Source of the DNA: Amedibacillus dolichus DSM 3991
GTDB taxonomy: Bacteria > Bacillota_I > Bacilli_A > Erysipelotrichales > Erysipelotrichaceae
DNA length: 64,000 nt
Assembly (NCBI RefSeq): GCF_000154285.1
Contig: NZ_DS483478.1
Location: forward strand, 62,001-126,000
Direction of reading: 5' to 3'
Positions within the stretch are counted from its first letter, which is position 1. Every line of letters starts with the position of its first letter. A program made the translations under genes and the position numbers. Under the pieces are notes generated by a model. The model had not been told where the DNA came from and made no database searches. It saw nothing but the letters and a program-made list of their open reading frames with translations. Below are positions 10,798 through 55,645 of this stretch, one piece after another.

Positions 10798-10950
10798 AAG
10801 CAGAGTAGGATAGGAAGCGTTAAGTATCTTCTGAACGGGGAGTTGTCAGAAGGGCGAAAAGATTTTCTTGCGATTTCTTATCCGCATCCCGCTGTTGCAT
10901 AATCGAGTGAACCTTCTTTTCCTTTATGCAATATGGAAAAAGGAGGTTTT
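10798..10950 (+). ncRNA. Tetrahydrofolate (THF) riboswitch with translational expression platform
   Basis: The aptamer (about 10798-10894) carries the conserved blocks GAGTAGGATAGGAAGCGTTAAG, GAACGGGG and ATCCGCATCCCGCTG in the order of the folT-type THF riboswitch. Downstream, TTGCATAA (10895-10902) can pair with TTATGCAA (10924-10931). Alternatively AACCTTCTTTTCC (10910-10922) can pair with the ribosome site at 10935-10948. The two pairings exclude each other, which gives a switch of ribosome access. The following gene is a folate transporter, as expected. Confidence 0.88.
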
Positions 10951-14418: not shown

Positions 14419-14430
14419 ACGACTATATTA

Positions 14431-14640
14431 GATAGAGGTGCGGATACGACAAGCACTTGCGAGCCGGCAGGCAATGAACAAGTGTATAAGCAAATCCGCC
14501 GAACTGTAGTTTCAGGCATGATGCTATGGTGGGTTCATGGAGAAGATCCATGAAACTGTCTGCGATATTGTAGATGTGCTATCTTACTTACCAAGCGCTG
14601 TATGGTCAGTAAGTCTTAGCACTTACTGCTTTTTTTATAG
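14431..14640 (+). ncRNA. Lysine riboswitch (L-box) with transcription terminator
   Basis: The aptamer runs from GATAGAGGTGCGGATACGACAAG to CTATC (P1: 14431-14435 with 14579-14583), with the conserved GAGCCGGCAGGCAATG and CCGCCGAAC blocks and a long GGTTCATGGAGAAGATCCATGAAACTG arm. Downstream a terminator, CAGTAAGT (14607-14614) with ACTTACTG (14621-14628) and a T run, competes with CTTACTTAC at about 14583-14591, which can pair with its 5' arm. High lysine should end transcription before lysA. Confidence 0.92.
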
Positions 14641-53282: not shown

Positions 53283-54276
53283 TTGGAAGATTGGCGATAT
53301 TGTCATTGATAATCAAGTAGTTATTGCGCCAATGGCAGGTATCAGCAATCCTGCCTTTCGTGTGATTTGTAAACAATTTGGAGCAGGTTTGATTTATACC
53401 GAGATGGTCAGTGATAAGGCTTTATATTATGACAATGAAAAAACGATCGGAATGACGGCAGTAGAGGAGAATGAACACCCATTGGCCTTACAGTTGTTCG
53501 GACATGATATCGAAACGATGGTATATGCGGCAAAGCTTATGGACGAGAAAACGAATTGTGATATTATTGATATCAATATGGGGTGTCCGGTAACGAAAAT
53601 CGTAAAATCGAATGCCGGTAGTGCCTTAATGAAGGATCCCGAGCATGCGATTGCCATGGTAAAGGCGGTTGTGGAAAATGTGAAAAAGCCGGTTACGGTG
53701 AAAATGCGAATCGGTTGGGATTTGGAGCATATTAACTGTGTGGAGCTTGCGAAGGGATTAGAGGCTGTCGGTGTTGCAGCGATTGCCGTACATGGACGTA
53801 CAAAAAAGCAGATGTATGAAGGTCATGCGGATTGGTCATATATTAAAATGGTCAAAGATGCTGTTTCGATACCGGTTATCGGTAATGGAGATATTCATTG
53901 CGGAGAAGATGCTAAACGCATGCTGGAGGAAACCGGGTGCGATGCGGTAATGGTCGGTCGAGGTGTATTGGGTGATCCATGGCTAATCAAGGATATTGTT
54001 GCTTATTTGGAATGCGGTGAGCATTTGGAAGCGGTAAGCTTGCAAGAAAAATTCGCAATGGCAAGACTTCATGCGAAGCGTTTGATGGATTTGAAGGGTG
54101 AGCATATCGGTATTCGGGAGATGAGAGGGCATGCTGCTTGGTATGTAAAGGGACTTCCTAAGAGCCATCGTTTGAAAGATGCATTGACGAAAATAGCAAG
54201 CTATCAGGATTTGGAGGATATTTTATCGGCATACGAAAAGGAGTATGCTGCATATCCGCAAAAGAGCGATTTTTAA
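53269..54276 (+). CDS. dusB: tRNA dihydrouridine synthase, DusB type
   Basis: 335 residues. FMN-barrel motifs are VIAPMAGISNPAFR, IYTEMVSDKAL, DINMGCPVTKIVKSNAGSALM (catalytic Cys), HGRTKKQMYEG and VMVGRGVLGDPWL. It reduces uridine in the tRNA D-loop or variable positions with NADPH. The ATG at 53269 (14-base overlap with hslO) is used; a TTG at 53260 with AAAGG upstream is also possible. The stop codon lies in a 15-base sequence that recurs at 55490 and 60383. Confidence 0.93.
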   Translation: MPKHSWKIGDIVIDNQVVIAPMAGISNPAFRVICKQFGAGLIYTEMVSDKALYYDNEKTIGMTAVEENEHPLALQLFGHDIETMVYAAKLMDEKTNCDIIDINMGCPVTKIVKSNAGSALMKDPEHAIAMVKAVVENVKKPVTVKMRIGWDLEHINCVELAKGLEAVGVAAIAVHGRTKKQMYEGHADWSYIKMVKDAVSIPVIGNGDIHCGEDAKRMLEETGCDAVMVGRGVLGDPWLIKDIVAYLECGEHLEAVSLQEKFAMARLHAKRLMDLKGEHIGIREMRGHAAWYVKGLPKSHRLKDALTKIASYQDLEDILSAYEKEYAAYPQKSDF

Positions 54277-54285
54277 ACGATGAAA
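54271..54285 (+). repeat. Cassette-border direct repeat, copy 1
   Basis: TTTTAAACGATGAAA, overlapping the dusB stop codon (54274-54276). Context AGCGATTTTTAAACGATGAAA. Copies 2 and 3 are at 55490 and 60383 in the same orientation. Confidence 0.7.
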
Positions 54286-54322: not shown

Positions 54323-54350
54323 TTGATTTTTTGTGTTTATAGCATATAAT
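54323..54350 (+). promoter_or_regulatory. Promoter of the abiF-leader RNA
   Basis: TTGATT (54323-54328), 16-base spacer, TATAAT (54345-54350). The predicted start is near 54357, directly ahead of the hairpin RNA. Confidence 0.65.
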
Positions 54351-54356
54351 AATATT

Positions 54357-54408
54357 GATTGTAGTCCTCGCACCTCTCTAAGATGTGGCCCAGAGGGCTC
54401 TTTTATTT
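54357..54408 (+). ncRNA. Short structured RNA ending in a terminator, ahead of abiF (abiF-RNA-like)
   Basis: AGTCCTC (54363-54369) pairs with GAGGGCT (54393-54399; one G-U), with an inner CAC/GTG stem (54371-54373 with 54385-54387), then C-TTTT-A-TTT. A transcript of about 50 bases would begin at the promoter and mostly stop just before the abiF ribosome site (AGGAGA, 54409-54414). I recall an Rfam motif called abiF RNA located upstream of such genes; membership here needs a covariance-model test. Confidence 0.6.
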
Positions 54409-54419
54409 AGGAGATTGTT

Positions 54420-55337
54420 ATGCAAAATAATTTAAAAAAGCCTTTAACCTATGAACAGCAGTTAGAACATTTAATTGTTGATAAAAAACTAAATGTTGAA
54501 AATAGAGATAATGCATTATTGATTTTAAAACATAATAACTATTACCGACTAAGCGGATATATGATTGATTTTTTAGATAAAGATGATATATTTTTCAAAA
54601 ATATAACTTTTGAAAAGATATTTAATATTTATACGATAGATAAGGAAATGAGATCTATTCTATTTGCCCTAATCAATGATATAGAAGTTTATTTTAAAAC
54701 ACAAATTGTAAATTATTTCACATTAAAGTATGGGCCGTTAGGACATAGAGATCCTAATAATTTTATGAAATACGAAGAAACCATAAATTTGCTAAAGGTT
54801 TGTAATGATATTAAAGAACGAAATCGATCAAGCCTAATAGTTAAGCATCATTTTAAAAAATATGATGGTTGTGTTCCTTTATGGGCGATGGTTGAATTGA
54901 TGTCATTAGGTAATATTTCTAAATTTTATTCTATTATGAAAACTACAGATAAAAAAGCTGTATGCAAATTAGGCTTTAAAAACCTTACGTATAAGCAGTT
55001 AGAAAGCTTTTATCATTCCATAGTGTATTTTAGAAATGAATGTTGTCATTACAAAAGACTATATGATATAGATCATACCATTATTCCTAAAGAATATAGG
55101 AGCAATGAAATCAATTTAGAGGGTATTGATTATAAAAGAACATATAGTTTTATAGTTATACTTCTATTGCTAAATCCTAACAAAAAACTAGGTGAAAAAA
55201 CAATTTATAGTTTAAAAAAATTAGTAAATAAGAATAGGAATATTGATTTTTGTGATAAATATGGATTTCAAAAAGAATGGTTTTCAAATTTATTTGCAAT
55301 AAACGGATATTGCATAAGTAATGAGAATCCAAGTTAG
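54420..55337 (+). CDS. AbiF/AbiD (Abi_2 family) HEPN-type abortive-infection protein
   Basis: 305 residues of the Abi_2 family: PLTYEQQLEHLIVDKKL near the start, YYRLSGYMIDF, and the central region VPLWAMVELMSLGNISKFY. The HEPN RNase motif R-x4-H is RNECCH at Arg205-His210 in IVYFRNECCHYKRLYD. Family members block phage growth and are likely RNases; the Abi_2 family has been proposed as ancestral to Cas13. GC is clearly lower than in dusB or lysS, which suggests transfer. AGGAGA lies 5 bases before the ATG. No other gene shares the transcript. Confidence 0.85.
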   Translation: MQNNLKKPLTYEQQLEHLIVDKKLNVENRDNALLILKHNNYYRLSGYMIDFLDKDDIFFKNITFEKIFNIYTIDKEMRSILFALINDIEVYFKTQIVNYFTLKYGPLGHRDPNNFMKYEETINLLKVCNDIKERNRSSLIVKHHFKKYDGCVPLWAMVELMSLGNISKFYSIMKTTDKKAVCKLGFKNLTYKQLESFYHSIVYFRNECCHYKRLYDIDHTIIPKEYRSNEINLEGIDYKRTYSFIVILLLLNPNKKLGEKTIYSLKKLVNKNRNIDFCDKYGFQKEWFSNLFAINGYCISNENPS

Positions 55338-55489
55338 GTAGGTTTGCAATAAATATCCTGAGGTAAATGAAAAGGTATAAATATATTTAATGATATGTCT
55401 TTGAACGGGAACATAGAAAAGAAACTAATTCGTAGATTTTTTTCATGAACTAGCGTGTTATATTGAAAATCAAAATAAAAAATAGCGTT

Positions 55490-55504
55490 TTTTAAACGAT
55501 GAAA
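55490..55504 (+). repeat. Cassette-border direct repeat, copy 2
   Basis: TTTTAAACGATGAAA in the context AGCGTTTTTTAAACGATGAAATAG. It shares AGCG-N-TTTTTAAACGATGAAA with copy 1 and the 18 bases ending ATAG with copy 3. Confidence 0.7.
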
Positions 55505-55531: not shown

Positions 55532-55560
55532 TTGCAAACGTTTACATAATCTGTTATACT
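55532..55560 (+). promoter_or_regulatory. Operon promoter with CcpA (cre) site
   Basis: TTGCAA (55532-55537), 17 bases, TATACT (55555-55560). A near-palindromic cre, TGCAAACGTTTACA (55533-55546), overlaps the -35 and fits the consensus TGWNANCGNTNWCA. Glucose-grown cells should repress the operon through CcpA. Confidence 0.8.
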
Positions 55561-55573
55561 AAACATGTAAAAA

Positions 55574-55645
55574 GGTTAGTGAATTAAGGGATTAATCAAT
55601 TTGCTTAATGCTAGACCACGTCATTTATTTGATGTGGTCTTTTTT
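55574..55645 (+). promoter_or_regulatory. RAT antiterminator and overlapping terminator of the PTS operon
   Basis: Antiterminator helices are GGT/ACC (55574-55576 with 55615-55617), TAG/CTA (55577-55579 with 55611-55613) and ATTAAG/CTTAAT (55583-55588 with 55604-55609), separated by small internal loops. The competing terminator AGACCAC (55613-55619) with GTGGTCT (55634-55640) and T run shares the AGACC segment. This is the classical layout for a BglG/LicT-type RNA-binding protein, encoded two genes downstream. Confidence 0.8.

Follow-up and report, generated by a model that had tools for sequence, protein, structure and literature searches.

A divergent abiF RNA upstream of an Abi_2 HEPN gene in Amedibacillus dolichus points to a type III-like RNA-antitoxin module

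Results

Organization of the A. dolichus abiF locus

The DNA analysed was a 64-kb stretch (the window) of contig NZ_DS483478.1 of Amedibacillus dolichus DSM 3991 (GCF_000154285.1), and positions 54323-55337 of this window hold what we take, with a probability of about 0.86, to be an AbiF RNA-antitoxin module, i.e., a type III-like toxin-antitoxin system in which the action of the RNA on the protein is assigned by homology. The locus is a well-formed, ordinary copy of a recently described system, with an RNA that is invisible to Rfam. A first-pass annotation of the same letters had described here a promoter, a short RNA ending in a terminator, a ribosome site and an Abi_2 gene, and all of these parts were found:

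54323-54328 and 54345-54350, + strand: predicted promoter, -35 TTGATT and -10 TATAAT with a 16-nt spacer, 10/12 positions as in the consensus
54363-54405, + strand: abiF RNA, single motif, located by R1, a covariance model that excluded the window sequence, and with covariation in relatives
54393-54404, + strand: predicted intrinsic terminator (outer-stem 3′ arm, then CUUUU), doubling as part of the antitoxin fold
54409-54413, + strand: predicted ribosome binding site AGGAG, 6 nt 5′ of the ATG
54420-55337, + strand: abiF gene for an Abi_2 HEPN protein of 305 aa (Pfam Abi_2; PDB 8vz6)
55032-55049, + strand: HEPN RNase motif R205-N-E-C-C-H210, with R205, N206, C208 and H210 invariant

The sequence lays out RNA, terminator and toxin gene as one transcription unit. 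Transcription is predicted to start near 54357, which would give an RNA of roughly 48 nt (about 54357-54404), near the 50 bases estimated earlier. A promoter scan by itself was not above chance (10 sites against 11.5 expected in shuffles); a -10-like hexamer with at least 5/6 matches was present in 36 of the 39 scored family leaders at a median of 13 nt 5′ of the RNA stem, and the corresponding distance in A. dolichus is 12 nt. A U-run followed the outer stem directly in these leaders, with at least three U in all 39 and at least four in 37, and the median distance from the end of the outer stem to the start codon was 26 nt, the counts leaving out 10 further abiF-labelled leaders that a simple stem scan did not match. 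Since the U-run adjoins the outer stem in the scored leaders, antitoxin motif and terminator form one structure in most members; a C. difficile phage locus (L032) has a separate distal terminator, and one locus (L050) has two motifs. The order of promoter, motif, U-run, ribosome site and gene is common to the abiF family, and a single-motif RNA was the common form among the loci examined, so that the compact single-gene version singled out by the first-pass annotation is not special. A 5-bp hairpin at 54387-54399, proposed by a terminator scanner as the terminator stem, is an alternative pairing and was set aside in favor of the 7-bp outer stem.

The AbiF protein

The 305-aa protein matched Pfam Abi_2 (PF07751) at E 1e-46 and 160 bits (cut-off 25.6) and was assigned to AbiD by PADLOC (E 3.5e-78); a search of the 2.19-Mb genome found no second Abi_2 gene. 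Residues 205-210 read RNECCH, in which R205, N206, C208 and H210 were invariant both in 9 and in 39 aligned proteins, and the R-x4-H motif (Arg205-His210) named earlier is thus confirmed, with no variation in the 39. The best PDB match by sequence was 8vz6 (E 2e-21), and the same entry, ‘PbAbiF dimer bound to ncRNA’, was the fold match of the AlphaFold model (pLDDT 94), with an E of 4.7e-13 and a TM of 0.82. A structure search with this model returned nothing but 8vz6 below E 0.001 and no Cas13 match; the link between Abi_2 proteins and Cas13 raised by the first-pass annotation accordingly stands on the literature (PMC12373285 and the review PMC12737573), and this search, which returned PbAbiF alone, did not reproduce it. 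In a tree of 83 proteins, A. dolichus AbiF paired with L003 (49% identical; support 100/100) among proteins whose genes carry an abiF RNA. Deeper branches of this tree were weakly supported, and the abiF label was clustered, not limited to one clade. Single-protein pattern scans found nothing, and these scans and the Rfam searches were replaced by a purpose-built covariance model and profile searches.

The leader RNA is an abiF RNA beyond the reach of the Rfam model

The predicted fold consists of a 7-bp outer stem (54363-54369/54393-54399) followed by CUUUU, a one-base spacer (G54370), a 3-bp inner stem (54371-54373/54385-54387), a loop (54374-54384) and a CCCA-type bulge, GCCCA (54388-54392). 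The Rfam abiF model RF03085, to which the first-pass annotation had pointed, gave no match to this RNA in cmscan, even at E 10; the public model is too narrow for it, and one made from relatives finds the RNA easily. A search of 392 genomes with RF03085 matched nothing, its controls included, and is therefore uninformative. Three relatives, on two plasmids and one C. difficile phage, did reach the Rfam abiF threshold directly 5′ of Abi_2 genes, and their fold is recognisable in the A. dolichus leader; several of the sequences behind the family model thus reach the Rfam threshold themselves. Alignment A2, which combined bulges of 5 nt and 6 nt, was rejected because its 3′ arm was out of register, and the model was therefore built from the 6-nt-bulge set only (A3; 14 relatives, without the A. 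dolichus sequence). In A3, 95.7% of cells pair, two-sided changes occur in 8 of the 10 pairs, and the covariation score is 0.58, compared with 0.20 in shuffles and 0.02-0.09 for slid structures.

The covariance model made from the A3 relatives (R1) had a sole match in the window at E up to 10, namely 54363-54405 (E 7.1e-7), which lies 15 nt ahead of the ATG at 54420. Across the 2.19-Mb genome the next candidate had an E of 5.7, and there was no other credible match. At 32.5 bits the A. dolichus RNA lies low in the family, only 6 of 44 matches scoring lower. The covariation persists when all 44 matches, the A. dolichus RNA included, are aligned, although this alignment is fitted to the model and hence biased towards it. 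Support is weaker for the inner stem, which consists mostly of invariant C-G pairs, than for the outer stem. The folding energy of the leader RNA was not above chance (z -0.6). Among 40 genomes with only other Abi_2 classes, 39 had no abiF RNA match. A candidate pseudoknot pairing the loop's CCUCU with AGAGG was rejected, given that the covarying outer stem uses AGAGG in its 3′ arm. Judged by its sequence, the leader RNA is an abiF RNA that has diverged beyond what the Rfam model recognises, and its hairpin, whose lack of conservation would have refuted the first-pass annotation, is kept with compensatory changes. Parts, conservation, covariation and family membership are direct results of this analysis.

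Genomic setting and flanking repeats

In several relatives lysS directly follows hslO-dusB, and in the closest relatives other genes intervene; in A. dolichus the interval from dusB to lysS holds abiF and a PTS operon. The neighbors of abiF are dusB and this operon, with no prophage or defence genes among them. Promoter, RNA and gene are enclosed by a pair of direct repeats:

54260-54285, + strand: 26-nt direct repeat, left copy, spanning the stop codon of dusB and matching the right copy at 24/26 positions
55479-55504, + strand: 26-nt direct repeat, right copy, 3′ of abiF

About 8e-5 such pairs are expected from base composition. Pattern searches found no close copy of the repeat core elsewhere in the genome, and there is no recombinase gene between the repeats. 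At L185, the abiF locus of the nearest relative, no flanking repeats were found, and they were rejected as a general feature of such modules. From its sequence, the module looks like a small insertion at the 3′ end of dusB. At L185 (2638-5592, genome G175), abiF lies between a glgA-like housekeeping gene and a PRD-type regulator with PTS genes, i.e., with a housekeeping gene on one side and PTS genes on the other as in A. dolichus, which may be coincidence or shared history. Downstream of the A. dolichus module, 55532-55640 contains a cre-like TTGCAAACGTTTACAT and a strong terminator (55613-55640) 5′ of genes for a PTS EIIA protein and a BglG-type antiterminator; this region looks like sugar-responsive antitermination of an operon ending in IF-2B-like and PsuG-type (PF04227) genes. 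Elsewhere in the window, THF and lysine riboswitches were found at 10799-10896 and 14425-14589, respectively, both on the + strand and far above Rfam thresholds.

abiF RNAs without an intact toxin in relatives

Genome-wide abiF RNA searches were run on relatives, most of which had been chosen for Abi_2 matches. An intact toxin accompanied 4 of 11 RNAs, that of A. dolichus included, when two contig-end matches and one weak match were left out. Broken toxins stood beside the RNA in G093 (six stops), G171 (a fragment), G432 (a frame break) and G088 (an internal deletion); no toxin was detectable at L318 (G172), L319 (G175) and L320 (G169), and at L322 the toxin is reduced to its first and last codons. 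At these last four loci the RNA is intact, the promoter is kept and no intact Abi_2 toxin lies downstream, while G175, G172 and G169 each also carry an intact module. Two further intact abiF RNAs with a promoter (L315 and L316) lie at contig ends, also with no intact Abi_2 toxin downstream. Given that the genomes were picked for Abi_2 and that a short RNA is a small mutation target, toxin-less RNAs do not demonstrate selection on the RNA; those of L318, L319, L320 and L322 are possibly anti-addiction RNAs or relics.

Leader RNAs of other Abi_2 clades

Three other RNA forms occur 5′ of Abi_2 genes. Class B (GCG-stem-UA-UCUC-UACG-GGGA-stem-UGCGG, a hairpin capped by a UACG-type loop and followed by a separate terminator) was found at L011, L020, L139, L141, L146, L147 and L190-L280, in Erysipelotrichia, Lactobacillales and Selenomonadales, with two tandem copies at L011 and L020. 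In class C, CUUCGGUAUCCCGUGUGGACCGAAG leads straight into a U-run (L281-L289, L293, L294, L300, L015, L021, L007 and L137). Class B is 91.5% paired with two-sided change at 6 pairs in alignment A7, and class C covaries in alignment A8, both structures having been drawn from the same sequences as were scored, so that the slid control favors them. Class D (GGUCAG..GCG..CGC..CUGGCC, then a U-run) belongs to a further Abi_2 clade (L022, L026, L140 and L144). Rfam gave no leader match at the six class B, C and D loci tested (for class C, L284 and L021). As cited in PMC12804078, the Cell 2025 study of AbiF had covariance models named AbiF5 and diverse_rna, and classes B, C and D may thus already be known.

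Discussion

Together, these data argue for an RNA-antitoxin module, and the type III-like reading of the first-pass annotation agrees, by analogy, with experiments on C. difficile AbiF/RCd22 (PMC12373285) and, as reviewed in PMC12737573, on PbAbiF/AbiFr, both experimentally established as RNA-antitoxin modules. Transcription from a single promoter would mostly end at the outer stem and U-run, so that a free RNA of about 45-50 nt outnumbers the toxin, whose mRNA would come from the transcripts that read through. Published relatives suggest that AbiF would form a HEPN dimer, be toxic, and be bound and neutralised by its RNA: the R205/H210 site would cleave single-stranded RNA, and one abiF RNA per monomer would hold the active site blocked with its single-stranded GCCCA bulge. 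In C. difficile, RCd22 binds AbiF and neutralises it in cis and in trans, and R202/H207 substitutions abolish AbiF toxicity (PMC12373285); for PbAbiF, one RNA per monomer and inhibition of the RNase by bulge nucleotides are described in PMC12737573. Disturbed transcription, e.g., upon phage infection, might then cause a shortage of RNA and toxin-induced growth arrest; for A. dolichus, both this trigger and an anti-phage role are conjecture. Points that weigh against the RNA-antitoxin reading are the low score of the RNA and its miss of the Rfam threshold, the weaker support for the inner stem, and the lack of prophage or defence genes nearby.

The RNA could instead be a riboswitch-like cis leader that limits or senses transcription of an Abi defence gene and neutralises no protein, with the outer stem and U-run serving as a terminator directly 5′ of abiF, much as RCd22 also acts in cis (PMC12373285). 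We consider this improbable: a plain attenuator would have no need of the inner stem, loop and CCCA bulge, all of which are conserved, related RNAs act in trans and bind the protein (PMC12373285), PbAbiF was solved with bound ncRNA, and abiF RNAs with a promoter occur where there is no toxin gene at all. That the module is a decaying relic whose toxin or RNA no longer works is very improbable; the open 305-aa frame, the intact catalytic residues and RNA pairs, the promoter and ribosome site in place and the confident predicted fold speak against it, even though this copy is divergent and loci of the family are often broken (L004, L006, L012, L129 and L322). A chance hairpin, i.e., a plain Abi_2 gene behind the ordinary terminator of the upstream gene, would suit the silence of Rfam and the unremarkable folding energy but is contradicted by an E of 7.1e-7 from a model blind to the A. 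dolichus sequence, at the exact place expected, with the next genome match at 5.7, and can be dismissed.

Under the RNA-antitoxin reading, the RNA probably both limits abiF expression and blocks the toxin. A bolder, doubtful proposal would combine two ideas: that AbiF, by binding nascent RNA, favors termination and so sets its own dose, the shared stem acting as a self-limiting switch, and that the solitary promoter-bearing RNAs of L318, L319, L320 and L322 are anti-addiction antitoxins against incoming AbiF modules.

The locus matters because the Rfam abiF model misses real members, which a wider model recovers, and because its minimal layout (one motif, a stem that is also the terminator, and one gene) is convenient for testing RNA control and block of a HEPN RNase of the sort proposed as the Cas13 ancestor. 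Two questions follow from the side results: can abiF RNAs that lack a toxin gene protect against AbiF, and do unrelated RNAs serve as antitoxins in other Abi_2 clades?

Among known systems, C. difficile AbiFCd/RCd22 (phi027, phiC2; PLoS Genet 2025, PMC12373285) shares with the A. dolichus locus an Abi_2 toxin with an R-x4-H site, an upstream abiF RNA in the same transcription unit, one SigA-type promoter and a terminator between RNA and gene. However, RCd22 has two abiF motifs plus a separate terminator hairpin (98-132 nt), whereas A. dolichus has one motif; the C. difficile locus sits in a prophage lysis module, and its protein is about 29% identical to A. dolichus AbiF. PbAbiF/AbiFr of Prevotellaceae (8vz6; Zilberzwige-Tal et al., Cell 2025, as described in PMC12373285 and PMC12737573) has the same HEPN fold (TM 0.82) and one RNA motif per monomer, but is only about 26% identical over the structural alignment and comes from a distant host phylum. 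The RNA of Rfam RF03085 is alike in its outer stem, one-base spacer, 3-bp inner stem, CUCU..AU loop and 3′ bulge, which is 6 nt long as opposed to 5 nt in the A. dolichus RNA, a sequence below the model's reach. Finally, the type III systems ToxIN, TenpIN and CptIN likewise encode an RNA antitoxin and a toxin, along with a terminator, in a single transcription unit, but their toxins belong to a family unrelated to the HEPN protein of A. dolichus, and in place of their tandem antitoxin repeats, the classical mark of type III, the A. dolichus RNA carries one copy of its motif.
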